From a virus: a DNA stretch of 25,336 nt. The notes below the pieces were generated by a model that saw only the letters and a program-made list of their open reading frames with translations, did no database searches and had not been told where the DNA came from. The stretch spans positions 1 to 25,336 of IMG/VR virus record IMGVR_UViG_3300010885_043499; one strand, written 5' to 3'. The position numbers and the translations under genes are program-made. Of this stretch, positions 1 through 21,748 are shown in pieces. Every line of letters begins with the position of its first letter. Within the stretch, counting starts at the first letter, position 1.

Positions 1-5
1 AAATT

Positions 6-596: not shown

Positions 597-601
597 GTCG
601 T

Positions 602-607: not shown

Positions 608-617
608 GTTAGTTATT

Positions 618-624: not shown

Positions 625-628
625 GCAC

Positions 629-677: not shown

Positions 678-697
678 ATGTTTACTGAGTATTACAA

Positions 698-2008: not shown

Positions 2009-2016
2009 GTTGTTCA

Positions 2017-2021
2017 CTCCT
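2017..2021 (-). promoter_or_regulatory. Shine-Dalgarno deciding the capsid start
   Basis: Minus-strand AGGAG is followed by eight bases and then ATG (2008). It overlaps the alternative GTG codon at 2017, which makes the GTG start unlikely. Confidence 0.75.
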
Positions 2022-2142: not shown

Positions 2143-4572
2143 CTAAAAAGTTAGGGAATTTGAGTAGTGTCGTTTCACTACTCGTGGGCAACAGCCTTTG
2201 GAATATTTGACTCCGTATTCGCCTTCTCGGAATCCAGCCCACTTTTTGTTTGTTTTACGGTTCCTCCATGGGTGATCCAATGGAAGCAGATCATTGTCAT
2301 CAAAGTATTTGACATCGGCAGGTTTGTCTGAGTTCAGCAACGCCAAAAATTTGTATACACGCTTCTTCGCTACTTCTTTTGAACCATCTTCTAAACCGCG
2401 TAAGAACACTATTTTCAGGTCACGAAGGTTGGTTTTCGCTGTGCTTTTCGCTTTAGCGTTGTTGTTCCGTACTCGTACAGCCAAATCGTTTATGTCACCG
2501 CTAGTCACGGTTGGTGGCTTCTTTTTAGGTTTTGGAACACCCTTAAAAGAAATCAGACCAGTCTGATCTATTGAACCCTGAGCATCCTTTTTGCCGAAAC
2601 CCGATCCCTGTCGGCGAGGATTATTCCTAGGGCTGTTATCCCCTCGGATACCTGTGACACGGTTGTAGTCAGAAACATTCGTGCATGGAAGCCAAACAAG
2701 TTTCCCATCCCGTGCCGTGTAACGACGAATACCTATACACCCAAGATTCCGTGCACGGATACGGGCAGACTCAGGATCACTAAAAGTATCAGGGTCTGTG
2801 GATCGGCTAACAAAGTTAACGAAACCCTTTTGTTCTAAAGACTTTTCGCTATTTTTTTCATAATGCGTAAAACCCTCACAAGAGTCAAGAATCGCAATAA
2901 AACCACCGTTTGAGACAATCGGATCCGTACCGTTCAAATCAAAATATGTGTCATCCGCATAACTTTTCTTTTTCTGTAAATTTCTTTCCGCTTGTCGCCG
3001 TTGCTGACGAGTCATACCACTTTGAGCATTTTGAGTATCTTGCCCACGGCTAAGCCATTCATGAAATTTTCTCCACGCAGGATTATTTGCAGTTCCAACT
3101 GGATGACCAAGTCTTGCTGCTGATGCTTTTTCTGCCACCAACTCAGCAAAACTTGCAGTTGCATAACGGCTAACTGTTAATGGATAATTACCTGAAAGAT
3201 CACGAATTTCCTTTTCGGTCAAATCATCCTGTGTTCCGTCTCTGAAAAAATTTTTCACTACCTGCCAATAAGATTCATATATTGCTCTGTTGACAGCATA
3301 TTCAAGTTCTTTTTCACCAATGTCGGGATTTAACTCTCTCAGAGATTTTTCTCTATCCGAAAATAGTCCTTCAATTGTTTTGGGATCCACTCCAGCGACA
3401 GTCAGAGCATGCTTCATTGTGTCGCGAGGTTTTGCGTTCATGTCACCTCCCACATGTTCCCATGTAGCAACATTGTGTTCGGCATGTGACCACTCATGAT
3501 GCATAATATACATTCCCCAAAATGTGTCAATGTCTTCTTCCGAAGCGCCCTCTTTGCGCATTTTCACTGCTATTTCGTCACCCCACCCAACATAATCTCC
3601 CTTCTTTGGAAAACCTTCAATCTCTTTTTTAATCATGATGGAATGTTCAAATATGACTTCTTTTTCTTTGTCACGCAAACCAAGCCATGTCATTGCTGTC
3701 GCAGCATTTGTCCCTTTGGGCATTTCATAATCTGGATACTCATCAAATCCAAGATCACCAATTCTGTGAATTGTTTTTGCAACCTTACCGTTTTTGCTAG
3801 AAAGATCCAAAAGTGCCACGGTGTGCGCCAACTGTAAAGGAGTCAAAGTTTTTTGATCAGCAGCAAAGATTCCAACACTGCGTATGTTGGGGAAGTTCTT
3901 CTTTAGGGCGCGGGTTGCGTTTTCAACTTTGCTTAGATCCCCGTGTATTTTTTCTTGTTCTTGCCTCTGTTTATTGAACACTTCAAGATATTTGGTACCA
4001 CTATGTTGTAGGACTCTTTTGATAATTTTCTTTGGTGGAGCAGGGATATTGTCATCCCCTCCCGGTCCGGTAAAGAATCCGTCGCCATCACCATCAAAAT
4101 CTGCTACACCGCCAATAGGACGACCCAACGACTTGCCCGAAAACGAGCCAGTTATAAGTCCGCCACCCGGCAAGGTAGCGATACCCGTAATAGGTTTCTC
4201 GTCAAGGTTCTCCCAACCCCTCTTCGGTGCTTTGTGGTCGCAAACCGCATAATACTTTTTACCTGCAAGCAGGATCGTTCGCACACCACCACAACCACGA
4301 GCCCTAGAAATAGCAACAGCATCAGCACGATTCTCGTAGTAGGCGTCAGATTTTGTTTCTAAACGCTTTGTTCGTTGAACCATTTTCGGCAACGGCTTCT
4401 TATTCTTGGAAGCACGAACTTTCAGATATTCTTCTGTACCTTTTTTGATTGCTTCGTATTCTTCACGGGAGGCGCACGGCATCCAGCCTTTGCCATCTTC
4501 GTACACGCCTTGACATCCGAGCATGCGTGCAACACGAAGAGCCTGATCTCGCGTAGTTTTAGAATCGGTCAT
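2143..4572 (-). CDS. Large head-region protein with HExxH zincin-like domain and Cys modules
   Basis: This 809-aa protein is modular. Three copies of an A-R-x-x-G-C-x-G-[VI] module that closes with a second Cys occur at about 14-33, 89-111 and 606-630. Residues 158-165 read D-x-D-x-D-x-D-G, like an EF-hand or other calcium loop, followed by a Gly-rich G-P-G-G-D-D-N-I-P. Residues 359-363 are H-E-W-S-H, the HExxH zinc metallopeptidase signature, in a helical setting; F-A-E-L-V-A-E (475-481) could give the third ligand. The C-terminus has a C-C pair at 794-795. It lacks the C-x17-C tag of its neighbours. It sits between a 77-aa ORF and the capsid gene. A metalloprotease delivered in, or acting on, the head is inference. 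The ribosome site is weak. Confidence 0.8.
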   Translation of the reverse strand: MTDSKTTRDQALRVARMLGCQGVYEDGKGWMPCASREEYEAIKKGTEEYLKVRASKNKKPLPKMVQRTKRLETKSDAYYENRADAVAISRARGCGGVRTILLAGKKYYAVCDHKAPKRGWENLDEKPITGIATLPGGGLITGSFSGKSLGRPIGGVADFDGDGDGFFTGPGGDDNIPAPPKKIIKRVLQHSGTKYLEVFNKQRQEQEKIHGDLSKVENATRALKKNFPNIRSVGIFAADQKTLTPLQLAHTVALLDLSSKNGKVAKTIHRIGDLGFDEYPDYEMPKGTNAATAMTWLGLRDKEKEVIFEHSIMIKKEIEGFPKKGDYVGWGDEIAVKMRKEGASEEDIDTFWGMYIMHHEWSHAEHNVATWEHVGGDMNAKPRDTMKHALTVAGVDPKTIEGLFSDREKSLRELNPDIGEKELEYAVNRAIYESYWQVVKNFFRDGTQDDLTEKEIRDLSGNYPLTVSRYATASFAELVAEKASAARLGHPVGTANNPAWRKFHEWLSRGQDTQNAQSGMTRQQRRQAERNLQKKKSYADDTYFDLNGTDPIVSNGGFIAILDSCEGFTHYEKNSEKSLEQKGFVNFVSRSTDPDTFSDPESARIRARNLGCIGIRRYTARDGKLVWLPCTNVSDYNRVTGIRGDNSPRNNPRRQGSGFGKKDAQGSIDQTGLISFKGVPKPKKKPPTVTSGDINDLAVRVRNNNAKAKSTAKTNLRDLKIVFLRGLEDGSKEVAKKRVYKFLALLNSDKPADVKYFDDNDLLPLDHPWRNRKTNKKWAGFREGEYGVKYSKGCCPRVVKRHYSNSLTF

Positions 4573-4579
4573 TTATTTT

Positions 4580-4813
4580 TTATTCCGCCGTGTAAGGCAT
4601 AGACATACCGTATTGTTCAAATAGTTCATCAATCTTGGATGAATTTTCCCCATCCATTAAAAACAATACCATTGATTCAAGATCTCCATCTTGACCAGTT
4701 TCGTCAGCGTAGCCAGTGGCGATTGAGATGATTTTTGAACGCGTCTCGGCATTTTTTATGGTTGCCATAAATGTTGTTTTTATTGAGTTTTTTTGTTCTT
4801 CTGAAAGTTTCAT
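4580..4813 (-). CDS. Small acidic helical protein (77 aa), unknown
   Basis: I recognise no family. The protein looks helical and acidic, opening M-K-L-S-E-E-Q-K and ending E-Q-Y-G-M-S-M-P-Y-T-A-E. Its ATG overlaps the stop of the 1483-aa gene (ATGA), implying translational coupling, and the 809-aa gene starts seven bases after its stop. Position and size match the other small ORFs that precede the large proteins here, but its sequence does not clearly resemble theirs. A partner or chaperone role is inference from position only. Confidence 0.75.
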   Translation of the reverse strand: MKLSEEQKNSIKTTFMATIKNAETRSKIISIATGYADETGQDGDLESMVLFLMDGENSSKIDELFEQYGMSMPYTAE

Positions 4814-7800
4814 GCATTACCCCTTGGTGCTGCTCGCGCCCTTCTTACCCTTGGGGCGGTTCCGCCAATCTTGTTTTTGGAAAAAGAAAAATCTCCCTTG
4901 GGTAATGGTGCGTTCGTTATGAACCAATGTTTTACAAACTCTCTTCTGATTTTATCGTTTGCTGGATCGTCAATAGCGAAAATCCATTCTTGGTGACTAA
5001 AACCTTTGCCAGCAATAGTTTGATCAACCATTGATTTGATTCTAAAGTATTCGGCACTTGAATTGATCAAACCACCAGCACCAAAGTTTTCGTAAAAATA
5101 AAGTGCTTTTTCAAATGATTGAAGTCTTGCACGAGGGAGATCGCCGTTTTTGAATCCAACTCTTGCCCAAACATACTGTCCATCCTGAACAGCAGGACTG
5201 ACCTTTGCTTTTGTTACACCAATTGATTTAAGGTAAAGAAAAGCATGCTGGTTGTAGATTGTTTGTATGTCGGCACCTCTATCTAATTTGCTTCTAATAA
5301 ACATTGTGTCGTTTTTGACATATCCGCTGCTCACATTGATTGTGCGTCCTGATTCCCCCACACTTCTAATGACTCTTCCGTTCGCATCAATTTCGTTGAA
5401 TTGAACACTCACATAAATGCTAGCCCCCACGCGCACTGTGGCAACCGCATTATAAAGTCTTCCGTTTGCTCCCTTAATCTTTGAATGACCGTATGCCTGC
5501 TCTAGATATCTTTTCTTGGCATCGGCTGGCATTGCACGCCATTTTTCGGGAGTCATATCTTCAAAAGGTTTCTTCGCAGAACCATATCGTTCTTTCATGT
5601 ACTCTGCATTTTTACTGCTGCGTCGTTTTATTGCAATATTGATTTGTGATTTAATTTTTTTTGCAACATCAGCATCAAGTGGCTTTACGACCCCAGGTGC
5701 ATCAGGGTTGAAATTTAATCCTTGCTCAACCCTCTTTACCGCTTTGTCAATCTCTCTATCAAAAAGATCATAATTTTGCAGGACTTGTTCTCTTCTGGCA
5801 ATTCTTTCCATGCGCTTTGCGATGGTTTGTGCGCGGGCAACCCGTTCGGATTCCCTATCCAGAGTTGCTGGATTTTTCAACAGCGCCCAAAGCCTTGCTA
5901 CTTCTAGCCTGTCGGCGGCTAAAGACTGTTCAAGTGTCCGCTTATCGGTATCACCGTTCTGTCTTATATACATTAATCTTGCAGCGCTAATTGCTTCTTG
6001 CAAATTAACTCGCGGATTATTTCTGTATTTTTCAATAATTCCTTGAAGGAGTTGATGGTATTCTCTTTCGGCAGCCATGCGACCCTGATTGTCGTTGAAT
6101 ATCATTTCATCAACATGGCGACCAAATTCCTGCAAATTTTTTGGTTCTCTGATTTCAAGCAAGAGATCTTCAACAATTTTTTCGTTTTCTGGTGAAAGTT
6201 TTGCTACTTTAATTTCTGCTGGTTTGAATACCAGTGCGGATGGTGTTTCGGTAGGTAGTGGTGTTCTTGTGACTACGTTGCCTTGTGCATCTCTTGGTCT
6301 GAGATCTTGAAGATTGCCAATACGATTGGCTACTTCGTCTATTCTTCTTTGCGCTGCTCGTACTTCTACGTCTCTTGCGCCACGACGCTCCAAATCATTC
6401 AAATCGCGTTCCGCTTGTGCTCGTTCAACGGTTAGTCTATCAATTTCGGCTTGATTTGGGTTTGGGACATTGAGTGGTGTAAGAAATGGCGCGTCTATAT
6501 CTTCTCTGTCGGGATCTAATATCAGTATCGCCGATTGCATCATTTCAACTCTTGCGCCTAGTGTCGCAATATTGCTAAACGCTTGTTTGCGAGCATCGGG
6601 ATCAACCAACCTGGTTCTATTCTGTAAATCAATTTCAAATTGTAAGCCTCTTTTGGCTCTTTCTAATTCCTCGCGCATTGCTTTGGTACGAAGACGACGA
6701 AACTCCTTGCTCTGTTTGTCAGCCCATTCTCTAAATTCTGGAAGGTTTTCTGCGCGACCGCCAAGTAACCGAAGTTCTACCTTTTTCTCTCTGTCAAATA
6801 CTTTTACCATACCTCTTTTGTCATCTTCGGAAAGATTAAAATACGGTGGCAACCTACCAAGAAATCTTTCAAATTCCGGTTGCTCTTTCGCTGACCTGTT
6901 GCCAGCCGCATTGAGAACATTTTCTTTGTGCCACGCTATTGCATCTTCACGGTTATCAAAACCAGTTTTTGTTTCACCATGTCGCCCATAGACGACAAAC
7001 CATTTACCACGAATAGCCTTATCAATTATGTCGCCATTTTCATGCGTCATAATGGTTCCAGGACCCCGTGTCCATCCGCCAGATTTTGATGTAGCAGCAT
7101 TGTTTGGATCTATTGATGAACGGCGTCCGACTTGGTCAAGAACTTCTTGCCATCCATCACGATGAGACGATATTAAAGCCTTCAACTCTGAAACTTTGAC
7201 TTTCCGTGATGCGTTGACACCTGTTTTTCTTAACTGAATGTAGTCATTTTCTTGAAGTAAACCACTATTGATTGCGCCTTGTATTCTCTCCAATCTTGCG
7301 TCTGAATCAATGATGCGGGCTTTTGCTTCTCTGGCTTTTATTTCAAGCCTTTTACGATCACTTGGATAATTGTCAGAGTCATTGATGATATCCAGACGCT
7401 GTTCGCGCAGGATGCGACTATGCATATATTGAACAAAACTCTGTCGTTCGTTCAATTCAAGTATTTTGTCTAGATCAACTTCTTTGCCTTTTTCCCTTGC
7501 ACGCCCCCTGTCGGCATCAGCCAAAATTGCGTCAGCATCTCCTCTTTGAAGTTCTGCATGAATTCGTTCAGCACGATTTATTTTTGCTACCAACTCATCC
7601 CAGTCTTTACCACTGACAACTTCGCGTGGGCGTAGTTGCGACTGTGCAGTCAGACCAACTGGATTGCCGTTACGATCTACGTCCTGTTGAACACGCCAAT
7701 CACGACTTTCCCATCGCCCCTCACCCACTTCTCTGAATCCCTGCGGTACCTTACCGACATCCACTCCCTTGCGAGGTGCTTCCCTGCGAAGGTTACGAGG

Positions 7801-9261
7801 TACTGATCTTGGACCCGTTTGCCGTTCTGGTTGCGCACGGCGACCTGCTTCAAGTTTGACAGCCATCCCGTAAAGTTGATTTGCGGCGTCATTTATCTCA
7901 TCATTTCTCTGACCGCCCCCATATAGCAATCGGTTCTGACCACCGTCCGGTGCTTCTATATCTAGTCGTTGCAGTTCCCCGTCAGCGTTAAAAAACGGTT
8001 TTACTTTGTAGCCGTCGCGCTCCCAAATACCATCTGAGTTTTTTGTCCAATTGTTATCAAGTACAATTTGTGGTTCACGAACCGCTTTGGGTTTTGCTGT
8101 AGGACGACGAGGTTTGACTACTTTTGGTTCAATCTGCGGTTTTGGTTTTGCTTCTTGTTGAGTTGGTGCTTTCGGTGTTTTGGATGTTTCAACAACTGCA
8201 CGACGGCGACGACGGGCTGGTGCTTCACCTGTTCGTGGCGCACCGGGTTGTTCAATCTCGCGATCCATACGTCGTTGTTCTGATTCTCGTAAGTTACCGT
8301 TACCCCTTGGTCGGTCTGCTTGCCTTCTTCGGGCAGGACGAGCAGGAGCGTTGCGCCGTTTCAATTCTGCCATTACACGCTTGTAATCATCGCTGTCACG
8401 ACCGTCTGTTGTATTCTCTAATTCATCGCGCATTTCTTCTAAAACATTTAGGGGTTCAGCAGCAAGAAGATTTCCTCTGTTGCGAGCCGGACGAGCAGGC
8501 GCTTCACCTGTTCTTGGTGCGCCCGGTTGATCAATTTCGCGATCCATTCTTCGTTGCTCTGATTCGCGTAAGTTTGGTGCACGCCTTCTGCGAGCAGGAC
8601 GAGCAGGACGAGCAACAGCATTGCGTCGTTTCAGTTCTGCCATTACTCGTTTGTAATCATCGCTGTCTCTTCCACCAGTAGCATTTTCTAGTTCGTCACG
8701 CATTTCTTCTAGAACATTTAGTGGTTCAGCCTCTAGAAGGTTCCTATCGTTACGAGCAGGACGAGCGGGAGTTAATTCTCTTGGAGTGTCAGGTGTGTCA
8801 ACCGATGGTGGTCGTGCGACAACAGTTCGCCTACGAGCACCACGAGGACTAGGAGCATCTCCGCCATCCAATCTTTCAGCAACACCACGCAAACCTTGCT
8901 CAAGACGACCAGCGCCACCGCCTTCGGGATTTAAGCGTTGCAGAATTCTTCGTTCACGACGAGCAATACGACGACCCCTACGAGCATCATCAATACTTTC
9001 TAGGCGTTGACCAATGTCGGATATTTGGTTTGCAATCCGACGGGCTACACCCCATCCACACGATCTGCCAAAACGGTCAGTTATTTGACCACCGTAACGA
9101 GTACCAACCGGGCATCGCCATCCACCGCGACGATTAGTCCCAGGAATGGAAAGACTTGGATCCCACAGGGCACGAACAGCCTTAACTTCGTAAGCCATAG
9201 TTGACGTGTTTCGTTCGGTGAGAAACGATTTTGCTTTAAAGTCAACGTTGTTCTGAAGCAT
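4810..9261 (-). CDS. Giant tagged head-region protein (1483 aa), repeats and coiled coils
   Basis: Residues 1-137 are the shared tag: F-K-A at 8-10, E-V-K-A at 25-28, W-D-P-S-L-S-I-P-G-T-N-R-R-G-G, then C50 and C68 in the C-P-x-G...T-D...C module, a helix (71-90), an Arg-rich stretch and G-L-R-G-V-A-E-R-L-D-G-G. Residues 166-350 hold two ~90-aa tandem repeats in a basic, Ala/Pro-rich linker. Around 405-465, 507-560 and 728-785 are three small W-rich segments that look related. Residues ~560-700 and 840-1190 are mainly helical and charged, probably coiled coil. The C-terminal ~250 residues form a globular, Tyr/Phe-rich domain (G-Q-Y-V-W-A-R-V-G-F at 1361-1370; S-H-Q-E-W-I at 1422-1427) that I cannot name. 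GAGGAAG at 9271-9277 supports the start. Function is unknown; an internal head or ejected protein is inference. Confidence 0.85.
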   Translation of the reverse strand: MLQNNVDFKAKSFLTERNTSTMAYEVKAVRALWDPSLSIPGTNRRGGWRCPVGTRYGGQITDRFGRSCGWGVARRIANQISDIGQRLESIDDARRGRRIARRERRILQRLNPEGGGAGRLEQGLRGVAERLDGGDAPSPRGARRRTVVARPPSVDTPDTPRELTPARPARNDRNLLEAEPLNVLEEMRDELENATGGRDSDDYKRVMAELKRRNAVARPARPARRRRAPNLRESEQRRMDREIDQPGAPRTGEAPARPARNRGNLLAAEPLNVLEEMRDELENTTDGRDSDDYKRVMAELKRRNAPARPARRRQADRPRGNGNLRESEQRRMDREIEQPGAPRTGEAPARRRRRAVVETSKTPKAPTQQEAKPKPQIEPKVVKPRRPTAKPKAVREPQIVLDNNWTKNSDGIWERDGYKVKPFFNADGELQRLDIEAPDGGQNRLLYGGGQRNDEINDAANQLYGMAVKLEAGRRAQPERQTGPRSVPRNLRREAPRKGVDVGKVPQGFREVGEGRWESRDWRVQQDVDRNGNPVGLTAQSQLRPREVVSGKDWDELVAKINRAERIHAELQRGDADAILADADRGRAREKGKEVDLDKILELNERQSFVQYMHSRILREQRLDIINDSDNYPSDRKRLEIKAREAKARIIDSDARLERIQGAINSGLLQENDYIQLRKTGVNASRKVKVSELKALISSHRDGWQEVLDQVGRRSSIDPNNAATSKSGGWTRGPGTIMTHENGDIIDKAIRGKWFVVYGRHGETKTGFDNREDAIAWHKENVLNAAGNRSAKEQPEFERFLGRLPPYFNLSEDDKRGMVKVFDREKKVELRLLGGRAENLPEFREWADKQSKEFRRLRTKAMREELERAKRGLQFEIDLQNRTRLVDPDARKQAFSNIATLGARVEMMQSAILILDPDREDIDAPFLTPLNVPNPNQAEIDRLTVERAQAERDLNDLERRGARDVEVRAAQRRIDEVANRIGNLQDLRPRDAQGNVVTRTPLPTETPSALVFKPAEIKVAKLSPENEKIVEDLLLEIREPKNLQEFGRHVDEMIFNDNQGRMAAEREYHQLLQGIIEKYRNNPRVNLQEAISAARLMYIRQNGDTDKRTLEQSLAADRLEVARLWALLKNPATLDRESERVARAQTIAKRMERIARREQVLQNYDLFDREIDKAVKRVEQGLNFNPDAPGVVKPLDADVAKKIKSQINIAIKRRSSKNAEYMKERYGSAKKPFEDMTPEKWRAMPADAKKRYLEQAYGHSKIKGANGRLYNAVATVRVGASIYVSVQFNEIDANGRVIRSVGESGRTINVSSGYVKNDTMFIRSKLDRGADIQTIYNQHAFLYLKSIGVTKAKVSPAVQDGQYVWARVGFKNGDLPRARLQSFEKALYFYENFGAGGLINSSAEYFRIKSMVDQTIAGKGFSHQEWIFAIDDPANDKIRREFVKHWFITNAPLPKGDFSFSKNKIGGTAPRVRRARAAPRGNA
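8212..8766 (-). repeat. Two tandem ~90-93-residue repeats inside the 1483-aa gene
   Basis: Protein residues 166-257 and 256-350 repeat each other: A-R-P-A-R-N, L-N-V-L-E-E-M-R-D-E-L-E-N, D-S-D-D-Y-K-R-V-M-A-E-L-K-R-R-N, then L-R-E-S-E-Q-R-R-M-D-R-E-I and Q-P-G-A-P-R-T-G-E-A-P-A-R. The unit is 90 codons, with three extra codons in the second copy. Codons have diverged more than the amino acids. A partial third copy (L-R-E-S-E to E-P-P-A-Q) lies in the 920-aa gene at 15410-15490. Confidence 0.9.
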
Positions 9262-9265
9262 TTAT

Positions 9266-9562
9266 TTAATCTTCCTCATTTTTGAGCATTGATAGTTCTT
9301 CTGTAAACAGTTCAAGAAGTTCTTTGCTGAAAGGTCTCGGTGGTGCTTCGTCGGCAAAATTCATGGATGATTCATACCAATAGTAAACTGGATCAAAGTC
9401 ACTTTTTGCTTCATTTAAAAGTTTTACAAATAGTGAATCTTTGTTTTTTAAAATGTTTCTTATTGATTCGGCGATTGGTGATTTTCCAGTTACCAAAAAT
9501 TTCTTTCCGTCATACGAAAGAATGAATCTGCTTCCTTTTGCGAACCAAATTGATTTGATCAT
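9266..9562 (-). CDS. Small protein (98 aa), member of a small-partner set
   Basis: No named family is recognised. It opens with a likely beta-hairpin (I-W-F-A-K-G-S-R-F-I-L-S-Y-D-G), then F-L-V-T-G-K-S-P-I-A-E-S-I-R-N-I-L-K, and ends in a helix S-K-E-L-L-E-L-F-T-E-E-L. The middle motif resembles F-L-V-I-K-K-G-S-P-D-R-A-N-L-E-G-I-L in the 98-aa protein at 13032-13328. The ATG overlaps the stop of the 1116-aa gene (ATGA). The stop lies just before the 1483-aa start, and the ribosome site for that gene falls inside this ORF. Tight coupling to two large tagged proteins suggests a dedicated partner (inference). Confidence 0.78.
   Translation of the reverse strand: MIKSIWFAKGSRFILSYDGKKFLVTGKSPIAESIRNILKNKDSLFVKLLNEAKSDFDPVYYWYESSMNFADEAPPRPFSKELLELFTEELSMLKNEED
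9271..9277 (-). promoter_or_regulatory. Shine-Dalgarno of the 1483-aa gene
   Basis: Minus-strand GAGGAAG lies nine bases before the ATG at 9261, inside the 3' end of the preceding small ORF. It is one of the best ribosome sites in the window. Confidence 0.7.
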
Positions 9563-12500
9563 CTGATTCCCTCCAACATTAGATTTATGAATGCGTCAGT
9601 TTTCATAATGTTAACCCTATTCTCCACAACCCTTTTCCTTTGAGCAATACTGACGCGAGCATTACCAATATCATCAGCATCCTCAAATCGCTGAGCGAGG
9701 TAATCAGCAGCGCCTAGGGGTTTAAGAACTGCCTGCATGTCATAATGCCATTGCTCAAGTGTTTTTTTAAGTTCTCTTGCAACTTGTGCTTTTGCGGTAG
9801 ACACGCTCATACCTCCGTCAACCAAGGATCTGAATTGATCCTTGTAACCACTCATGACATCGGAATCAAGACCTCGGTATTCTCCGTTTAGGAGATAATT
9901 TTTCATTTCCTCTGGTGTGTCTGGTTGTTGGTAAAACCCGCGACCAAAGTCAATCGGTAATGCTCCATTACCTCTAAAAACCATTCCGTTTCCAGGATGT
10001 CTATCGTGGGCACCCATTATGGCGTTAAGTAATCCCGCGGCGAGACGCGACTCCTTGTCTGTGATCGCTCTCGCTCCACCATTAAAGTCTCCTACGTCGG
10101 CTGCTACCCCATCAGCGAAGTTCGGACCTAATTCAAGGATGATTGCTATTGATACGCCACCTCCTCCGTCGTCTTCTTTCATAATTCTTCCATGACCGTG
10201 AGCGAACCCCATTTTTTCGGCAAGGGCTGCACCGAGCAATTCTGCATGGTTTGCCCCATTACCAAATTGTCGGTCTGCGGGTTTTCTCAGATAGCCGCGA
10301 CCATCTATTGACCCATCGTCTCCAATAAACAAATGGAAACTGGGATTTGCGCCACCAGTTCCAGCATAATAACTTATGTAATCAACACCTGAGTCTTTCA
10401 GTTTTTTGAGAACCTTTTTGTCGTCGTCTGTTAGTGGGCTTACTTTAGTACGAGACCTTTTGATTCTTCCCATGAGTGACTCTAACTTCGCGTAATCTGC
10501 GTCTGTTACAGGACCATTAGGGAACATGGCTTTCGCTAGGGCGCTTCTTCTTTCAATGTCGCCAAAAGGATCCAATATGAAATCTGATCGTTTACGCAGA
10601 ACAGCGTCAAGAAATCTGTCTGGAATATCATTCAGCGGTCCTTTGTATGCGAGGGCTTCTGCTTCTGTTTGTATTCCTTTATTTCCCACTTCAACTTCTT
10701 TGAAAAGTTCACCGTTTGCCATTTTGGGCAGTCGTTTTTCGTGACGATCTTTTGCTTTGTTGAGAGGTTTAACATTTTCCCCCCACATACCTCTAGGTGC
10801 GTTTCGTCCATCTGTCGGTGCCGGAGGTGTTGAAGGTGTTGGCGAACTTGGCGAACTTGGGGTTTCAGGATCTCCACCCATTTGATTTAAAATATTTTCA
10901 AAATCACCCAAGTAATCGTTTAACGCTCTTTGACCTTGCGGACCTTCGTACCGTTGTTCTACTATTTGACCAGTAGCGCTATTGCTGGCGTAGAAACCAC
11001 GGAATTTTCCGTTTTCTTTTGGAATTAGTGTAATTTCCCAGTTTCCTTTTTTCCATGATGTTGAACCGTTGCGTGCGTTTACGGCGTCCCAGCCTGCTCC
11101 ACCAAAATCTGGAATTTTTTCAATTGCCTGTCGTGCTGGTGCTTTTGGATTTGCTTCAGGGCGACGAGCGCGATTTGCGTTTGCCACTGCCACTTGTCGG
11201 AGTTTTCGTTGTTGTTCGCTAAGTTTTCTTAACTTAGCGAGGTCGCCAGCAGCAACACGCTGACCCAACCCTCTTATCATCCTGTGCTGTCCTCTTAATT
11301 CATCTTCAATGTTTTCCACACGAGCAATCAAATCGGCAATTCTGTCCGGGTCAACTGCTTTGGGTTCGCGCAAAATTGCTTTAACCTGTTTGTCAAATTT
11401 GTCACTAAAAACGTGGTTGGGGTCGCCATCTATCTCTCTGTTTGCGTTGACTACAGCCTCACGGGCTGCTTTTAATTTGGTTCGGTCAGCCAACACCCTT
11501 CTCGCTGCTGGCTTAACAGGTTTTGCTGGTGCTGGTTCTGGAACATCATCAGGTGTTGGTTTACGTGTTGCGCTACGAGCGGCACCTGCTGTTGTTGCCT
11601 TCTTACGACGACCACGGTTGTTTCTTGGGCGGCGAGCCTGTGGTGTTGGTGGTTCAAAGTCTTGCGGTGCGCTACGACCGTGTGCATCTTTCCAAGCGTC
11701 ACGAAGGTTTGGTTTGTTGATTGCATACCATTCGCGTCGTGTCAACATTCCTGCGTTTGCACCGCCAGCACGAAGTTCACGAACACGCTTAGCGTATTCA
11801 TCGTATTTTCGTAATACGTAAGGTTTAAAATCTTCTGACGCGTTTGCGTCTGAGGCTTCTCGTGCTGTGAGCACATCAACATCTTCTGTTTGTGGTACGA
11901 CTCGTGGTCGTGCCTGTGGGCGTCGTTGCCCTGCTGGTGCTGGTCGGCGTGCAGGGCGTGGTTTAGGCTTAGATGTTGGCGCTGTTTCGGGGATGACATC
12001 ACGACGACGATTTTGTGGTACTCGTGTTGAAGGTGCATCTACTTCTGTCTGTTCGTCACCTTCTCGCCTTCTGCCACCAAACTCAGCATTTATCACTCTT
12101 CCAATGTTGCTTGCATTCCAGACGTCAGCAGCGCGTGGTCTACCCCTACCGCGAACCCTTTGTGGTTGCGGTGCATCCCCACCATCAAGACGATCAGCAA
12201 TACCGCGTAAGCCACCCTCAACACGACCAGTCTCAGGAACCCCACCAAGCCTTCTCATCATTCGTGCATTACGACGATCAAGACGACGCTTTCGCTTGTC
12301 ATCGTCTCGTTGTTCTAAGCGTTCACCGATGTCGGCGATTTGGTTTGCGATACGGCGGGCAACACCCCAACCACAAGAACGACCGAACCTGTCGGTGATC
12401 TGTCCGCCATATCTTGTTCCCACAGGGCATCGGAAACCACCACGACGATTAGTGCCCGGAATAGAAAGACTTGGATCCCAAATTGCTCGTACACCTTTGA

Positions 12501-12909
12501 TTTCAAAGTTGAAAGATGATTGGGTTTGATCAGAAATAAATGACGACGCTTTAAAAGTCAGCACATTTCTGAACTCTGAGTTTGAAAACTCTGATAGCAA
12601 AACCTCTGATATAGACAGAACGGGAAGGTTTTTGGTTTCCACAATTTCCGTTTTCAGCGATGTGAGACTGGCAACTTTTTTCTCTATCCCTGATCCCGAC
12701 GGGCTTGGACCTTCAATAATTTTTGATGAGTCCATTGTCTGAATTAGTTCAGGTTTGGTTACTGGTGTTTTACCGTATTCTTGACGGAGCATCACAGCGA
12801 GTTCTTTGGCGTCTTCGGTCATCGGTTTGAAGGTGGATCCTTCGGGGGTCGTTGAAACAACCATAAATGGTGTGTTGTCACGATTTTTGATAATGAAAAC
12901 TAGGTTCAT
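9559..12909 (-). CDS. Tagged head-region protein with C-terminal kinase-like domain (1116 aa)
   Basis: Residues 1-~110 are an extra N-terminal part resembling the separate small ORFs (M-N-L-V-F-I-I-K...P-F-M-V-V, then A-K-E-L-A-V-M-L). The shared tag follows at 118-245: F-K-A at 119-121, E-I-K-G at 136-139, C161 and C179. Basic, Pro-rich linkers and a helical part (470-580) lead to a small W-rich domain (605-670) and a Pro/Ser linker (680-700). The C-terminal domain is kinase-like: pre-kinase motif L-N-D-I-P-D-R-F-L (759-767), candidate Lys876 (Y-L-R-K-P), Glu890, catalytic loop D-R-H-P-G-N (969-974) and metal-binding I-D-F-G (986-989). D-R-H-x-x-N with I-D-F-G is closest to PI3/4-kinase-like folds; the substrate (protein or lipid) cannot be told. 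GGAAAG sits upstream of the ATG, and its stop overlaps the 98-aa ORF. Confidence 0.87.
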   Translation of the reverse strand: MNLVFIIKNRDNTPFMVVSTTPEGSTFKPMTEDAKELAVMLRQEYGKTPVTKPELIQTMDSSKIIEGPSPSGSGIEKKVASLTSLKTEIVETKNLPVLSISEVLLSEFSNSEFRNVLTFKASSFISDQTQSSFNFEIKGVRAIWDPSLSIPGTNRRGGFRCPVGTRYGGQITDRFGRSCGWGVARRIANQIADIGERLEQRDDDKRKRRLDRRNARMMRRLGGVPETGRVEGGLRGIADRLDGGDAPQPQRVRGRGRPRAADVWNASNIGRVINAEFGGRRREGDEQTEVDAPSTRVPQNRRRDVIPETAPTSKPKPRPARRPAPAGQRRPQARPRVVPQTEDVDVLTAREASDANASEDFKPYVLRKYDEYAKRVRELRAGGANAGMLTRREWYAINKPNLRDAWKDAHGRSAPQDFEPPTPQARRPRNNRGRRKKATTAGAARSATRKPTPDDVPEPAPAKPVKPAARRVLADRTKLKAAREAVVNANREIDGDPNHVFSDKFDKQVKAILREPKAVDPDRIADLIARVENIEDELRGQHRMIRGLGQRVAAGDLAKLRKLSEQQRKLRQVAVANANRARRPEANPKAPARQAIEKIPDFGGAGWDAVNARNGSTSWKKGNWEITLIPKENGKFRGFYASNSATGQIVEQRYEGPQGQRALNDYLGDFENILNQMGGDPETPSSPSSPTPSTPPAPTDGRNAPRGMWGENVKPLNKAKDRHEKRLPKMANGELFKEVEVGNKGIQTEAEALAYKGPLNDIPDRFLDAVLRKRSDFILDPFGDIERRSALAKAMFPNGPVTDADYAKLESLMGRIKRSRTKVSPLTDDDKKVLKKLKDSGVDYISYYAGTGGANPSFHLFIGDDGSIDGRGYLRKPADRQFGNGANHAELLGAALAEKMGFAHGHGRIMKEDDGGGGVSIAIILELGPNFADGVAADVGDFNGGARAITDKESRLAAGLLNAIMGAHDRHPGNGMVFRGNGALPIDFGRGFYQQPDTPEEMKNYLLNGEYRGLDSDVMSGYKDQFRSLVDGGMSVSTAKAQVARELKKTLEQWHYDMQAVLKPLGAADYLAQRFEDADDIGNARVSIAQRKRVVENRVNIMKTDAFINLMLEGIR

Positions 12910-13031
12910 TGTTTACTTTCCACATTTGTGAAGATATTCAGCAAACCATGCAAATCTTGAGGTTGCAATATCGCTACTTTAAAATGGTATCACTAAGTGG
13001 GCGATATTAATTTTAGGTTGCTGTAAATGTA
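12910..13031. other. Intergenic segment with inverted and direct repeats
   Basis: AATATCGC (12967-12974) and GCGATATT (13001-13008) are perfect inverted repeats, flanked by direct copies of AGGTTGC (12960-12966 and 13015-13021). The palindrome CACTAAGTG (12991-12999) lies in between. No T-run follows, so it is unlikely to be a terminator; an operator or a processing structure is possible. Most other gene junctions in the cassette have no gap, which makes this one stand out. Confidence 0.4.
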
Positions 13032-13328
13032 TTATTTGTTATCTAGTTTTTTGTGCCCCAAGGCAACTAGAAAATTATCAATTTTATCCTTATTGGAACC
13101 CTTGTACTCAAGTATTTCGGCATTACGGTACGAGTACCCGTGCAATATGCCTTCAAGGTTCGCCCTATCTGGCGAGCCCTTTTTAATTACCAAAAATTGT
13201 TCATTATCCTTTTTATCTGAATCTTTATCCTTTGAGTAATACCGAATAATTCCTTTATCGTCCTCAACTATGACAAGTGGTTCTACCTGAACTAGTGGGT
13301 CTTTGGATGTGATGATCGCTGCTCTCAT
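13032..13328 (-). CDS. Small protein (98 aa), member of a small-partner set
   Basis: No named family is recognised. It opens M-R-A-A-I-I-T-S-K-D-P, has a likely beta strand P-L-V-I-V-E-D-D, a Lys/Asp-rich loop, then F-L-V-I-K-K-G-S-P-D-R-A-N-L-E-G-I-L, and ends D-K-I-D-N-F-L-V-A-L-G-H-K-K. The layout (N-terminal hairpin, F-V...S-P...L helix, C-terminal helix) is like the small proteins at 9266-9562 and 17808-18125. It starts five bases after the 920-aa stop, with AGGA a little upstream, and precedes the 1116-aa gene across a 122-base gap. Its role is unknown. Confidence 0.75.
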   Translation of the reverse strand: MRAAIITSKDPLVQVEPLVIVEDDKGIIRYYSKDKDSDKKDNEQFLVIKKGSPDRANLEGILHGYSYRNAEILEYKGSNKDKIDNFLVALGHKKLDNK

Positions 13329-13333
13329 GGTTC

Positions 13334-16096
13334 TTATGATCCTATAATCAAATCGGCAATTCTGCCCGGGTCAACATCTGTTATATATTTCATTTTCTTT
13401 TGAGGTCTTTCGCCGATCCTTATGGAAATCTGATCCCCATTTCTAGGAACGGCGGTTCCATCCCCACCGGATTTTAGTACACCGTCAACAACACCCATAT
13501 ACGGGTTCTTCCGTTCTGCTTCACGAATGGATTTTTGTACCTCTTCAACGGCTAAGAGTATTTCACGCCGACTTATGCCCCCATTTGCGACTTGTGCCTG
13601 AAGTGATGCGAGCATTTCATTTCTTCCACCACCCATGTCATTGCGTAGAAAGCCTCGGAGTCCAGCGTCATCACCATCATAATTTTCATGAACCCGTCCA
13701 CCCCACATTGCATCAAACCCGAGAGAGGGATCAATTGGAACAAACCTCTTTACACCATTGGAATCGGTTGCAATAAAGAAATTCCCCCCATGGCGATCCC
13801 TGTTCACCATAATATAATCTAAGAGTGTTGCTCTCACACGGTCGGCTGGTTTTATCTGCCCTACTTTTATCTGATTTCTTCCGTCTTGAAGCGCCCCATC
13901 AACATAGTTTCCTGCGTGTTCGTAAACAATAGCCCTACCAGAACTATTCGGAACCCCCGCACCACCTTTTTGTTTCCCGTCCATTCGCACACCGCCAACA
14001 GGCATACCAAGTCTTCCAGCAATATGATTACCAATTACCTCGTGAATGTCTTCGTTTTCAGCCATTGCACCAGTTTGATATTTCAAGAAATATTTCTTGC
14101 CAGTGATCTTGTCAGTGAACATGTGCATATTGTTAACGATGCCCCCGTTAACACCCCCACCAGCATCCTCCCTTGAGAATCTTGTTTTTGCACCGTGCAA
14201 CGCCTGACCCAATAACTCATCGGGGACATCAGCCAAATCCCCACCTTTTTCTAGGTGATCAATTGCTCCGCTGATCTCGTCTATACCTGCATTTCCTAAA
14301 GGAACGCTTTTCACATCGGGCAAACCATCTGAACCTAATTTGTTTAGTTTTTCTGGTGCATGACCATCTTTTGCTTTTGGTGGTGAGACATCCCATCCGC
14401 CTTCTGGTTCGGTTAGGTCTGGCGGACGCGCAGGTGGTTCCGTTGGTATATCTGGTGGACGCACAGGTGGCTGCGCTACAACAATGCCCGCACGATTTTG
14501 CGGTTTCGGACGGAACTCTATTCCCGCATCTACTTCAGTTATTCTCATTTTGACAGCGTCTAATTCGTCGTTATTCTTTTCTCTCCGCAAATGAACGTTC
14601 ATCAATGCATTTCTTGCTGCTTCTCGTTCGTCTTGCCCACCGCCTTTTTTCTTGTTCCATTCTGCAAAAGCCAGTTCAAACTCCTGATCAAGCACCAACT
14701 GTTCCCTTTTCGCATTCTCTTGCTTTGCTTTCAAACCATCTTTGTCAAGATTCCGAAGGTTGTTGTATGCGTTCGGTTTATAATTTGCTATATCGTCTTC
14801 AACAATCCGAACCAAGTTCGCGTCTTCTGGTCTGTCAAACTCAAACTCCGGTACGATTTGCTTGCGCATACCTGGCGGACCTGCTGGTCTCGCGGGCTGC
14901 ACAGGTGCAGGTGCTTTGGGAGTTGGAGGCATTGGTGGTGGTGATGGAATCGGAGATGAAGGTTCCGTAGGGCGTTTTGGTGGTTCTGGTGGCTTAACCC
15001 TTGCTGCGGGTTTAGGTTTTGCGGGAGTTTTTGGTTTAAGTTGTTCAATACGTCGCAAGATATCTTGCTCACCAGTGATGAACTCGTTATATGAAGGGAC
15101 ATATGCGATGTTGTCGTTTCCACCAAAGCCGAATTGGTTTTCTAAACCGTTCACATGGTCTCTGTATTTTTTCCAATCAGAGTTAGAAACACCATCTGGT
15201 CTGTTGGCTAGCGCTTCTCTTTTTTGTTTTTTGAGATCTTTGTCAAGTTTTGCAAGATACTCTTGCCTTTGTTGAACAACATCAACTCTTCGTGCTGGAA
15301 GAATTGGTTTCGGTGGAGGGCTGTCAACAAAATCTGCTTCAGGTTTTCTGCGTACTGTCCTTTTAGCGCCTTGTTGCGCAGCGTTTCGTCGGCGTCGTCG
15401 TGGAGCATTTTGTGCAGGTGGTTCACCTGTGCGTGGTGCGCCGGGTTGAACTATTTCTCTTTCCATTCTTCGTGCTTCTGATTCACGAAGATTTCCTCTT
15501 CTCCGACGAGCCAGTTCTCTTTCAAATTGTCTTACGTTTTCACTATCTTGTCGCGGATCATTTACCCGCATACCTTGATCATAAATTCTTGGTTTTCCAA
15601 AATCGGGTAGATTCAAATCTGGCTTTCTTTGACTTGTTGCGTTTAGGGCGCGTGGAGCGCGTGGAGCGCGTGGAGCATTTATCGGTTTCGCAACGCCGCC
15701 ACCGTCTAGCGCATCAGCAATACCGCGAGCACCTCTTTCTAGTAAACCGGGTTTATCTTGGCGTGCCAAAAATCGTTGCATACGGGCATTTCTTTTCCCA
15801 AGACGGTTATTACGTTTGCGATCATCAATACTTTCAAGCCGTGCGCCAATATCTGCTATCTGGTTAGCGATTCTTCTCGCAACACCCCACCCGCATGATC
15901 TGCCAAAACGATCGGTGATTTGACCGCCGTACCGTGTGCCAACAGGGCAACGCCAACCGCCTCTTCTGTTTGTTCCCGGAATGGACAAACTTGGATCCCA
16001 AAGCGCACGCACACCTTTAACTTCGTAGTTAAAAGTGCTTGCGGTCTGCTCGGCAATAAACGCTAGCGCTTTGTAGTTGACTTCATTCTTGAGCAT
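13334..16096 (-). CDS. Tagged head-region protein with C-terminal kinase-like domain (920 aa)
   Basis: The N-terminal ~137 residues are the shared tag and line up residue for residue with the 1483-aa protein: Y-K-A at 8-10, E-V-K-G at 25-28, W-D-P-S-L-S-I-P-G, C50 and C68. Residues 203-229 copy the 1483-aa linker repeat. Pro-rich linkers (355-405, 540-565) flank a charged helical part (420-525). The C-terminal domain is kinase-like: L-A-D-V-P-D-E-L-L pre-motif at 621-629, Gly-rich A-G-G-G-V-N-G-G at 645-652, Lys672 (Y-F-L-K-Y), Glu686, catalytic loop N-R-D-R-H-G-G-N (765-772) and V-P-I-D (786-789). D-R-H-x-x-N is intact; the DFG-like part is I-D-P-S. The C-terminus ends D-P-G-R-I-A-D-L-I. The start abuts the stop of the 572-aa gene; the ribosome site is weak, so coupling is likely. 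The substrate is unknown. Confidence 0.87.
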   Translation of the reverse strand: MLKNEVNYKALAFIAEQTASTFNYEVKGVRALWDPSLSIPGTNRRGGWRCPVGTRYGGQITDRFGRSCGWGVARRIANQIADIGARLESIDDRKRNNRLGKRNARMQRFLARQDKPGLLERGARGIADALDGGGVAKPINAPRAPRAPRALNATSQRKPDLNLPDFGKPRIYDQGMRVNDPRQDSENVRQFERELARRRRGNLRESEARRMEREIVQPGAPRTGEPPAQNAPRRRRRNAAQQGAKRTVRRKPEADFVDSPPPKPILPARRVDVVQQRQEYLAKLDKDLKKQKREALANRPDGVSNSDWKKYRDHVNGLENQFGFGGNDNIAYVPSYNEFITGEQDILRRIEQLKPKTPAKPKPAARVKPPEPPKRPTEPSSPIPSPPPMPPTPKAPAPVQPARPAGPPGMRKQIVPEFEFDRPEDANLVRIVEDDIANYKPNAYNNLRNLDKDGLKAKQENAKREQLVLDQEFELAFAEWNKKKGGGQDEREAARNALMNVHLRREKNNDELDAVKMRITEVDAGIEFRPKPQNRAGIVVAQPPVRPPDIPTEPPARPPDLTEPEGGWDVSPPKAKDGHAPEKLNKLGSDGLPDVKSVPLGNAGIDEISGAIDHLEKGGDLADVPDELLGQALHGAKTRFSREDAGGGVNGGIVNNMHMFTDKITGKKYFLKYQTGAMAENEDIHEVIGNHIAGRLGMPVGGVRMDGKQKGGAGVPNSSGRAIVYEHAGNYVDGALQDGRNQIKVGQIKPADRVRATLLDYIMVNRDRHGGNFFIATDSNGVKRFVPIDPSLGFDAMWGGRVHENYDGDDAGLRGFLRNDMGGGRNEMLASLQAQVANGGISRREILLAVEEVQKSIREAERKNPYMGVVDGVLKSGGDGTAVPRNGDQISIRIGERPQKKMKYITDVDPGRIADLIIGS

Positions 16097-17815
16097 TTAT
16101 TTTTTCTTCTTTGCGCTAACCAAGTCTGGTTTGATGAAGGTCTCGTACTCCCAACGAGGTGCTGTTCTCTCAATACCATCAAGACCTGTGTATGTAACAA
16201 TTTCAAACGGTTTTGGAATATTGCCTGTGTCTTCAATAAATCTGAATGCACCTTCTGAATCTGTGGCAAATTTCTTAATGTTGGAAATGATGTTGTCTTT
16301 GGTGCTTGATTCTGCGAGCGAGTTAATCATTCGTGGGAATTTGCGTTTTTCACCGATGGTAAATGGTCGTGAGCGTTCAATGCTTACCACAACTCCGTTG
16401 GGTGCAACGAACGAGATTTTGCTCATTGATGGTCCGCCAAGAAGAGCAAGGTCATCCGCACCAATATCTGAAGGTAGTTGAACTGCGCGAACCATTGCGC
16501 CATCAACCATGTCAGGGTTTTCTCCAAATGAACGGAGAACAGATGAAGGAACAACTGGTCGCAATACAACGCCATCTCGTCGGATCATTCGTCCTTCGCC
16601 CGCTGGCGCCCCTTTGAGCGTTGTTATTGACTGTTTTACAGAAGCGTTGAACTTATCTTTTTGGAAAGCACCCGTCCGTGGGATTTGTGCCATACGACTA
16701 ATTTGAATTGTTCGCGCATTACTTGGGTTTCCTTCTAAGACTTCTGAAAGATTTTCTGCTCGTGCTGTTGGCAGTTTTGGATTTACCAGTCTTCGTGCTG
16801 CCCGTGCAAGCAATGCGAGTGGTCCTGGTATTTCAAATAACTGTGCTCCACATGTTGAGAAACGGTTATCCGTGAAACGACCGCCGAATTCAAAACCGCT
16901 AGGGCATCGTGCTTGACGCCTCCGATCAGGCTTAAGTCTGCTGAGTGCGCCACCACCACCGCCGGGGATCAAAGCCCCATAAAGCCGTGAGCGAATAGGT
17001 GCACTGAAAGGCGATACGTTGCCCGGTGTTACAACCGAACCAACCGCTTGCGCTGCTCTGCCAATTCCACTTGATGAACCAATAAGACCTGCTTTGATTT
17101 CTATGTCTTCAGCGTCATCTTTTTCAACACGGTATCCACCGCCACGCTTCTTGTACTCACGAACGAGCCAAGCGTTTGCGTAAGCAGAAGGATAGACATT
17201 GAATTTCTTTTTGGCTTCCGCTTTCACCCTTGAATAAAGTTCTGTATCTGTTGGAATGTTCGCGCCTTTTGTTGCATCTACATCCGACTTGAATGTGGAC
17301 ACATTGATTGGCTTGTTGCCATCTCTACTTTCAGAGTTTTCTGCTCGGCGCTTCCTATTTACTGCGGATTGCCGTTCCGAATCAGACATTCTCATGGCTG
17401 TAGATTTTTTTACACACTTTGGATATTTCCCCGAATCAGCATCCCCACGACCACAGGACTCAAAACCGCCACCCTTTTTAGGGCGAGATATATCAACCCA
17501 TTCTTCTTCAAACCATTTACCCAAACCACCACGCTTAGTTTCATCACCAATAAAAGTTTCCGAGCCAAGACGAGAAGTACGCGACTTCAAATAAAGTTTT
17601 GCTTTGAAATTGATTAAATCCCTAGTCCCATCTAAAGGTGTTGTCCTAAGATCTGAACCTTTTGTGAACATAAACTTTCTGTCAATTTTCTCAGGGTTAA
17701 AATACATTTCAGAACCAGAAACAAGACTTGTTCGCTTCATCAAAGTTTTCTGTCGCATAGACATACGGAGTTTGCGCACAAAATATTCAAAATTAGGATT
17801 CAGGTAATTACTCAT
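16097..17815 (-). CDS. Multimodule phage structural protein with C-x17-C module (572 aa)
   Basis: Modules in order: F-K-A at 70-72; a K-W-F-E-E-E-W-V-D-I module with C-G-R (121-123) and Y-P-K-C (131-134), resembling a Cys module (DUF5872-like by memory) of aquatic phage proteins; V-Y-P-S-A-Y-A-N-A (207-215) with Y-K-K-R-G-G-G-Y, another module seen in phage structural proteins; E-I-K-A-G at 239-243; then the C-P-x-G...T-D...C module with C304 and C322, followed by a helix rich in Ala/Arg. The C-terminal 200 residues are unrecognised and end in a Lys tail. No catalytic motif is seen. It overlaps the 105-aa ORF by eight bases (ATGAGTAA) and abuts the 920-aa gene. It is probably a head-associated protein; the C-terminal domain may be the specific part (inference). 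Confidence 0.82.
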   Translation of the reverse strand: MSNYLNPNFEYFVRKLRMSMRQKTLMKRTSLVSGSEMYFNPEKIDRKFMFTKGSDLRTTPLDGTRDLINFKAKLYLKSRTSRLGSETFIGDETKRGGLGKWFEEEWVDISRPKKGGGFESCGRGDADSGKYPKCVKKSTAMRMSDSERQSAVNRKRRAENSESRDGNKPINVSTFKSDVDATKGANIPTDTELYSRVKAEAKKKFNVYPSAYANAWLVREYKKRGGGYRVEKDDAEDIEIKAGLIGSSSGIGRAAQAVGSVVTPGNVSPFSAPIRSRLYGALIPGGGGGALSRLKPDRRRQARCPSGFEFGGRFTDNRFSTCGAQLFEIPGPLALLARAARRLVNPKLPTARAENLSEVLEGNPSNARTIQISRMAQIPRTGAFQKDKFNASVKQSITTLKGAPAGEGRMIRRDGVVLRPVVPSSVLRSFGENPDMVDGAMVRAVQLPSDIGADDLALLGGPSMSKISFVAPNGVVVSIERSRPFTIGEKRKFPRMINSLAESSTKDNIISNIKKFATDSEGAFRFIEDTGNIPKPFEIVTYTGLDGIERTAPRWEYETFIKPDLVSAKKKK

Positions 17816-19978: not shown

Positions 19979-20242
19979 TCAGTCGCTTGGATCTGACGCT
20001 TTATTGATCGTTGACATTGGAACCACATCATCATCCTCTACTTCTTTTTTCTTAGAAGCCTTTTTAGGTTCCACTTTTTCTTCTACGACTTGTTCAACGA
20101 CTACTGGTTCTTCCTTGACTTCAACCTCAACAACAGCAATCTCTACTTCAGGCATCTCCACTACGGGAACTTGTTCTTGTTTTGTGTCAAAAACAAGACC
20201 AGAAGTATTCACTGAGTCAACAGGTTGTTTTTCTTTCTTCAT
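19979..20242 (-). CDS. Low-complexity Val/Glu-rich small protein (87 aa)
   Basis: This 87-aa protein is built of alternating Val, Glu and Pro (runs such as V-V-E-M-P-E-V-E-I) with a Lys-rich stretch P-K-K-A-S-K-K-K near the C-terminus and a D-D-D-V-V-P end. It is probably disordered. Its ATG overlaps the stop of the preceding gene (ATGA), and the 614-aa gene starts 12 bases after its stop. Its place between protease and capsid genes would allow a scaffold or assembly role, but composition alone cannot show this. It does not resemble the other small ORFs. Confidence 0.65.
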   Translation of the reverse strand: MKKEKQPVDSVNTSGLVFDTKQEQVPVVEMPEVEIAVVEVEVKEEPVVVEQVVEEKVEPKKASKKKEVEDDDVVPMSTINKASDPSD

Positions 20243-21543: not shown

Positions 21544-21552
21544 GTTCGTGGA

Positions 21553-21558
21553 CTCCTT
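21553..21558 (-). promoter_or_regulatory. Shine-Dalgarno favouring the start at 21543
   Basis: Minus-strand AAGGAG lies nine bases before the ATG at 21543. It is the strongest ribosome site near this gene and argues for initiation at codon 51 of the longer frame. Confidence 0.7.
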
Positions 21559-21680
21559 GTAGTGCATTGTTTTTGCAATGCACTTTGTTGGATTAGAGCA
21601 AACAGAGCATGGCGTCAAGCGCTTATCGCCTGACATCAGACACTGATATTTTGCTGTTTTTTGTGGTAAACCTGTTATTG

Positions 21681-21691
21681 AAGTATAACCC
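21681..21691 (-). promoter_or_regulatory. Repeated GGGTTATACTT element, possible late promoter
   Basis: The 11-mer GGGTTATACTT (minus strand) also occurs at 23918-23928, upstream of the protease gene. TATACT fits a -10 box (5 of 6). No -35 box is evident at 16-18 bases. Confidence 0.4.
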
Positions 21692-21748
21692 ATATTAGTG
21701 TTTTGTTTTCGTTACAAATGGAACCGTTCTTAAAAGTCATTTTTTTAT

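Follow-up and report, generated by a model that had tools for sequence, protein, structure and literature searches.

A conserved N-terminal tag on proteins with interchangeable bodies in the head gene cluster of actinophage-like viruses: a candidate capsid-targeting module

Three consecutive genes in the window (the whole stretch of DNA analysed here, a 25,336-base IMG/VR virus record whose large genes all lie on the minus strand; Table 1) encode proteins of 920, 1116 and 1483 aa which have in common an N-terminal region of about 115 residues, hereafter the tag. In related viruses, this fixed tag carries interchangeable bodies which have been exchanged between phages. The tag is probably a capsid-targeting module, by which swappable host-modifying enzymes would be loaded into the head and ejected together with the DNA.

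Gene content of the window

The window encodes a head gene cluster running from the portal protein to the major capsid protein, in which a gene for a 105-aa protein also lies between those of the 614-aa and 572-aa proteins. The first-pass annotation had delimited the tagged feature as 8992-16027, a range that spans the tags and omits the bodies, which extend down to 4810. The gene immediately following that of the capsid protein (6-596) encodes a product judged by eye to be Dps/ferritin-like, an odd neighbour for head genes.

Table 1. Position of the head-cluster genes and of the domains of the tagged proteins in the window
Feature	Position	Strand	Basis or remarks
Portal protein, cut at window end, MuF domain C-terminal	23948..25336	-	family match
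Prohead serine protease (S78), 700 aa	21749..23851	-	family match
484-aa conserved head-cluster protein	20239..21693	-	PepSY match and order across loci
614-aa protein, short two-cysteine module near N-terminus (about 19697-19783) and kinase domain PF00454	18122..19966	-	
572-aa protein, DUF5872 and internal two-cysteine module (about 16826-16924)	16097..17815	-	
920-aa tagged protein	13334..16096	-	
Tag of 920-aa protein	15641..16096	-	residues 1-152, conserved part about 1-135
Predicted kinase domain, PI3/4K/HipA-like, C-terminus of 920-aa protein	13337..14326	-	K82, E96, DRHGGN177-182, D199 (segment numbering)
1116-aa tagged protein	9559..12909	-	
N0, extra N-terminal domain ahead of the tag of 1116-aa protein, 112 aa	12574..12909	-	
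Tag of 1116-aa protein	12124..12573	-	residues 113-262
Predicted kinase domain, C-terminus of 1116-aa protein	9562..10551	-	DRHPGN, PIDFG
1483-aa tagged protein	4810..9261	-	
Tag of 1483-aa protein	8806..9261	-	residues 1-152
Predicted GNAT-fold domain, C-terminus of 1483-aa protein	4813..5697	-	conservation pattern, AlphaFold2, Foldseek/VIA-align
809-aa protein, DUF3721 N-terminal, 425-aa inserted cassette (about 2851-4125) with HEWSH zincin-like motif	2143..4572	-	
Major capsid protein, HK97 fold (PF05065)	698..2017	-	

Sequence conservation and predicted structure of the tag

All-against-all blastp comparison of the three N-terminal regions gave E-values of 5e-63, 2e-50 and 5e-56, so that their likeness is beyond chance, while the 62-residue core (WDPSLSIPG... 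to ...ESIDDRK) has 58, 57 and 55 identical residues in the three pairs, which bears out the near-identical tag of about 115 residues first noticed on these proteins. The accompanying claim that codons differ where residues agree, and that selection preserves the tag, also holds: the same codon is used at only 20-26 of the 62 core positions, and dN is 0.09-0.135, against a dS at saturation for two of the pairs and of 2.56 for the remaining one. As the residues are kept while synonymous sites are saturated or nearly so, the tag is under purifying selection and recent gene conversion is excluded as the source of its identity, in agreement with the clustering of tags by slot described below. Among orthologs (six pairs), the tag has a dN/dS of 0 to 0.08 and the C-terminal 300 residues one of 0.08-0.18, compared with 0.16-0.49 for the linker between them, so both ends of these proteins are constrained and the middle is loose. 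A linker repeat of 27 aa (GNLRESE.RRM.REI.QPGAPRTGE.PA; 85% identity) is found at residues 201-227 of the 920-aa protein and 322-348 of the 1483-aa protein, with a second copy within the latter.

An alignment of 58 tags contains 26 invariant columns, including C50 and C68 and many arginine and glycine residues, and the core conforms to the motif R-C-P-x-G-T-x-x-G-G-x-x-T-D-x-x-x-x-x-C (x represents any amino acid). None of the 58 members gave a Pfam match of note, MuF included, and the sole weak PDB match, to ribosomal protein eL37 (E = 0.057), was judged to be chance. The AlphaFold2 model of the tag (pLDDT 63, pTM 0.27) is too weak for a structure search and predicts no enzyme fold, only short strands by the cysteines followed by a long basic helix (residues 70-113, low confidence). 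Such a poorly modelled tag fits a docking segment that would become ordered only when bound, and not an enzyme. A protease cleavage motif common to the capsid N-terminus and the tagged proteins was sought by eye in a capsid alignment with nothing convincing found, and no prohead protease cleavage site was identified at the end of the tag.

The predicted basic helix, the two invariant cysteines and the many invariant arginines and glycines would also suit a nucleic-acid-binding or regulatory module, which would place the enzymes on phage DNA or RNA polymerase in the infected cell and would not be packaged into the virion. This role is very unlikely, as none of the contigs searched has the tag outside the head cluster and a related two-cysteine module occurs in neighbouring head-cluster proteins (see below), both of which are better explained by a partner in the head than by a DNA target.

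Kinase-fold bodies

The last 300 residues sort the complete distinct proteins into three groups of 46, 18 and 2, so that distinct C-terminal domains are indeed attached to the tag, albeit in unequal numbers. The first group comprises the kinase-fold bodies (46 of the 66 complete bodies). An alignment of 41 kinase sequences, 15-82% identical to the first, is invariant only at K82, E96, D177-R-H-x-x-N182 and D199, which correspond to the ATP-binding lysine, the helix-C glutamate, the catalytic loop and the metal-binding aspartate of PI3/4K- and HipA-like kinases. Since these columns make up the full catalytic set, selection on catalysis is indicated, and the bodies are predicted PI3/4K/HipA-like kinases with complete catalytic residues. 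Matches to Pfam were obtained for PF00454 (19 of the 41 sequences), HipA_2 (7) and Fam20C (2), and the best PDB profile matches of the kinase body, all weak, are a FAM20-type protein and PI3/PI4 kinases. A match of the 920-aa C-terminus to the hepatitis delta antigen family of Pfam was below the cut-off and was judged a charged-helix artefact.

Beyond the tag, the three proteins had been described as largely unrelated, which is correct for the body of the 1483-aa protein, with its different (predicted GNAT) fold, but has to be amended for the others: the 1116-aa and 920-aa proteins have in common a kinase domain of about 200 aa (27% identity, E about 1e-6 by blastp), and the 920-aa and 1483-aa proteins have the above linker repeat in common.

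GNAT-type and unassigned bodies

Bodies of the second group, typified by the 1483-aa protein, have no Pfam match. The C-terminal domain of this type is modelled confidently by AlphaFold2 (pLDDT 85.8), and GNAT acetyltransferases account for nearly all of the PDB structure matches listed (Foldseek E just above 1e-3; VIA-align Z up to 7.8). The support for the prediction that the 1483-aa protein ends in a GNAT fold is thus good but not overwhelming. The acetyl-CoA pyrophosphate loop R/Q-x-x-G-x-G/A may be represented by diverged versions, such as KNNGIQT and RGADIQT. The third group consists of L054 and L055, with no assigned family, and more distant tag proteins (L105, L109 and L237) end in stretches without any family. 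The tag, for which no enzyme fold is predicted, is therefore joined to kinase, GNAT and unassigned bodies, and not to one constant C-terminal domain.

Exchange of bodies between phages

The exchange of bodies is seen directly at the DNA level. The sequences of L012 and L011 match at 93.9% identity over bases 3 to 14404, a span that includes the slot-2 tag and linker. No DNA match exists for the kinase body that follows (up to about 15870), and the two align again from the slot-3 tag. The same break is found in this gene in L006 and L007. At the protein level, tag and body are 98% and 26% identical, respectively, in slot 2 of L010 and L011, 98% and 27% in slot 2 of the window and L010, and 100% (over about 130 residues) and 25% in slot 1 of L018 and L019. 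Conversely, the slot-2 bodies of L011 and L018 are 99% identical with a dS of 0.09, compared with a dS of 1.13 in the tag region, which requires a recent transfer of the body. In the tag tree, the sequences in the clade of the window fall into three slot-specific groups (14, 14 and 15 rows; supports 100/97, 99/98 and 100/99), while the slot-2 kinase bodies of the same genomes fall into at least four deep clades and the slot-1 bodies into at least two (some deep joins being on long branches). The first-pass annotation had taken the constant tag and variable body for the pattern of polymorphic effector delivery; the exchange implied by this pattern is real, but the variety of the bodies is narrow, most of them being kinase-fold.

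These data also bear on whether the tagged proteins are structural or scaffolding parts of the head, of which the tag would bind the capsid protein, the basic Arg/Pro-rich middle would condense DNA or shape the shell, and the enzyme-like C-termini would modify head proteins. Such a role would accord with the location of the genes between those of the protease and the capsid protein, with the basic nature of the tagged proteins (pI 9.7-10) and with the fact that no other scaffold is recognised in the window. A conserved head should, however, keep one modifying enzyme, yet the body is swapped while the neighbouring head genes stay >90% identical; moreover, the same tag fronts different folds, and kinase bodies that otherwise diverge all retain the complete catalytic set. 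A purely structural function is thus rather unlikely.

Distribution of the tag

A scan of 2.9 million viral contigs retrieved 52 loci, which together with the window encode 106 tagged proteins, 81 of them distinct (distinct sequences are quoted here, as near-identical contigs inflate the raw counts). Each locus encodes one to three tagged proteins, in which the tag is located at the N-terminus or directly behind N0, a domain which spans about 110 residues. N0 lies ahead of the tag in 46 tagged proteins and is also found in 3 homologs of the 809-aa protein and in 2 standalone copies; examples of N0 fused to the 809-aa homolog or alone are L026:18864-20270 and L041:14373-15749. As far as the contigs extend, the gene order is kept across loci: portal, S78 protease, 484, 614, (105), 572, tag1, tag2, (tag3), 809 and capsid (numbers give the length of the window protein in aa).

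When ten record contigs of 65-145 kb were searched by profile, no tag turned up outside the head cluster, the only extra matches being short ones in homologs of the 572-aa protein. Nine of these contigs also include the capsid gene, and in them all copies of the tag are at most about 16 kb away from it. No tag was found in 84,980 bacterial and archaeal genomes (one per species), so there is no prophage or host copy among them and no sign of temperate phages. The tag is likewise absent from 50,697 named phage records, so nothing can be transferred from a studied phage, and the 614-aa protein, the kinase segment and the GNAT domain have no relatives among named phages. Judged by the capsid protein, the closest cultured relatives are Brevibacterium phage Cantare (49% identity) and Gordonia phages (46-47%), so that these viruses are classed as actinophage-like.

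The combination of a constant N-terminus with an exchanged C-terminus is formally the layout of polymorphic toxins, and the portal itself bears a MuF domain; the tagged proteins might accordingly be true polymorphic toxins, as proposed for MuF toxins, which would act against competing bacteria or phages and be accompanied by cognate immunity genes. At every locus examined, however, the next large head gene follows closely and no small gene co-varies with the body in the gene maps, no toxin domain was found in the bodies of the window by Pfam or NCBIfam, and the bacterial and archaeal genomes gave no sign of temperate phages. With neither an immunity gene seen beside the bodies nor a typical toxin domain found, the reading as classical polymorphic toxins is not supported and is highly improbable, the least probable of those considered.

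Related two-cysteine modules in neighbouring proteins

Two neighbouring proteins contain a shortened tag core: the 572-aa protein, where 42 of 49 homologs have it, and the kinase-bearing 614-aa protein, where it lies near the N-terminus and occurs in 38 of 43 homologs. In profile-profile comparison, the tag core matches the 572-aa and 614-aa modules with E = 5e-8 and 2e-6, respectively, values that are optimistic because the segments were picked by motif. Unselected support comes from blastp (E = 0.004) and from whole-contig matches (E 7e-5 to 7e-4), and hmmsearch gave E about 1e-6 to 1e-4 on distant proteins, themselves picked by motif. Modules of the 572- and 614-type were also found in more distant phages by two further viral scans. 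The 614-type module R-C-P-P-G-T-P-N-A-N-Q-F-T-D heads distant proteins of up to 2289 aa, in which metallopeptidase-like HExxH motifs replace the kinase.

The 809-aa protein contains a 425-residue insert with the motif HEWSH. Its homolog in L030, a protein of 379 aa, has no such insert but matches the two flanks at 94.6% and 92.8% identity. This insert shows the same kind of cargo change as in the 614-type module proteins. In L039 and L028, the 809-aa homologs have extra sequence in the region of the HEWSH insert.

A protein of 1555 aa (L110:4506-9170) contains a 2H phosphoesterase domain (2_5_RNA_ligase2, E = 8.5e-10) with a weak match to anti-CBASS Acb1, and also joins a segment of the 700-aa protease protein, a diverged tag core and a kinase. 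The segment in question lies behind the protease domain of the S78 protein (RGPRRGNLEKLLRYWRP...CAWLHHETTGLWPNEG) and recurs in L110, while separate proteins of 215-263 aa in L105-L109 match the 700-aa protease protein.

It is quite possible, as a tentative extension, that the two-cysteine module R-C-P-x-G-x(6-8)-T-D-x(5-6)-C, present in five head-cluster proteins whose genes lie near one another and in wider phages, represents a previously undescribed, general head-address system of uncultivated actinophage-like viruses, which might route kinases, acetyltransferases and metalloproteases to the capsid, with the cargo swapped by recombination.

Proposed function of the tagged proteins

The capsid-targeting function considered probable here draws on the conservation of the tag, its confinement to the head cluster, the exchange of bodies, the intact kinase catalytic residues and the predicted GNAT-type fold. 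Under this proposal, the tag would bring the large proteins with their enzyme domains to the prohead during head assembly and dock them on or inside it, close to the portal, protease and capsid proteins encoded around it, and the S78 protease might trim them. The PI3/4K/HipA-like kinases, the GNAT acetyltransferase and the zincin-like protease of the 809-aa protein would be stored in the head, enter the host with the DNA early in infection, and modify host proteins, thereby taking over the cell or blunting its defences. The strong purifying selection on the tag would reflect a constant partner in the head, and the exchange of bodies between phages would reflect variation in the host targets. 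We infer delivery into the host from the location of the genes among those of the head. Several points speak against capsid targeting: no protease cleavage site was recognised where the tag ends, the tag is absent from the named phage records searched, proteins of 900-1500 aa would have to unfold to pass a tail, and the enzymes could in principle act in head assembly and not in the next host. The last is less likely, because the surrounding head genes are conserved while the enzyme is swapped.

Phage proteins that are injected into the host are hard to recognise from sequence, as they have no common signal. If the tag is a packaging address, it would provide a sequence handle for injected effectors in many uncultivated phages, draw attention to kinases and acetyltransferases that modify the host and vary more quickly than other parts of the head, and possibly serve to load chosen proteins into phage heads, a purpose for which the capsid-targeting sequence (CTS) of phage T4 has been used.

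Comparison with known systems

Cantare and the Gordonia phages resemble the window not only in the capsid protein but also in the protease and portal. The head region of Cantare, however, is without tag, kinase or GNAT domain, and its protease gene lies directly before that of the capsid protein. Cantare gp11 (L056:7662-10784), a protein of 1040 aa with a zincin-like HEIGH motif, is encoded in the same head region.

The MuF toxins of temperate phages (e.g. PMC12226406) also combine a constant N-terminal phage-structural domain with an exchangeable C-terminal enzyme, a likeness of layout only. MuF was found neither in the three proteins nor in the 58 tags, the MuF domain of the window being on the portal, and these viruses differ further in giving no sign of being temperate and in having no immunity gene in the gene maps.

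Polyvalent proteins, which are likely packaged in the capsid and carry kinases, RimI-like GNATs and peptidases, with recombinational variability suggested (Iyer et al. 2017; PMC5512222), are like the tagged proteins in being large, multidomain, encoded among structural genes and provided with kinase, GNAT or metallopeptidase catalytic domains. Their kinases form a distinct group which has lost the C-terminal subdomain, whereas those of the tagged proteins match PF00454 or HipA_2 and appear to be of another kind; the terms 'HipA' and 'phosphatidylinositol' are absent from the text of PMC5512222. The passages drawn on here describe no near-invariant tag on several paralogs per genome, and a search of one literature collection found no paper on virion-packaged phage kinases of the PI3/4K/HipA-like type. 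The tagged proteins fit the broad polyvalent class, but are distinguished by their PI3/4K/HipA-like kinases and by the tag common to the paralogs.

Phage T4 targets Alt and the internal proteins to its head by means of an N-terminal CTS of 10-20 residues, and the ejection proteins of the giant phage SPN3US have propeptides of 124-130 residues (PMC5694885), which are similar in length to the tag. Like the CTS of Alt and IPI-IPIII, the tag is an N-terminal stretch common to several head-cluster proteins of a phage that encodes a prohead protease. The CTS, however, is short and cleaved, while the tag has about 115 residues and two invariant cysteines; the cargo of T4, which is ejected into the host, consists of an ADP-ribosyltransferase or small inhibitors, and that of the tag of predicted kinases and GNAT domains. 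The tag shows no sequence kinship to the T4 CTS or to polyvalent proteins and is not filed as a CTS, but may work like one, the apparent likeness lying in the way of working.
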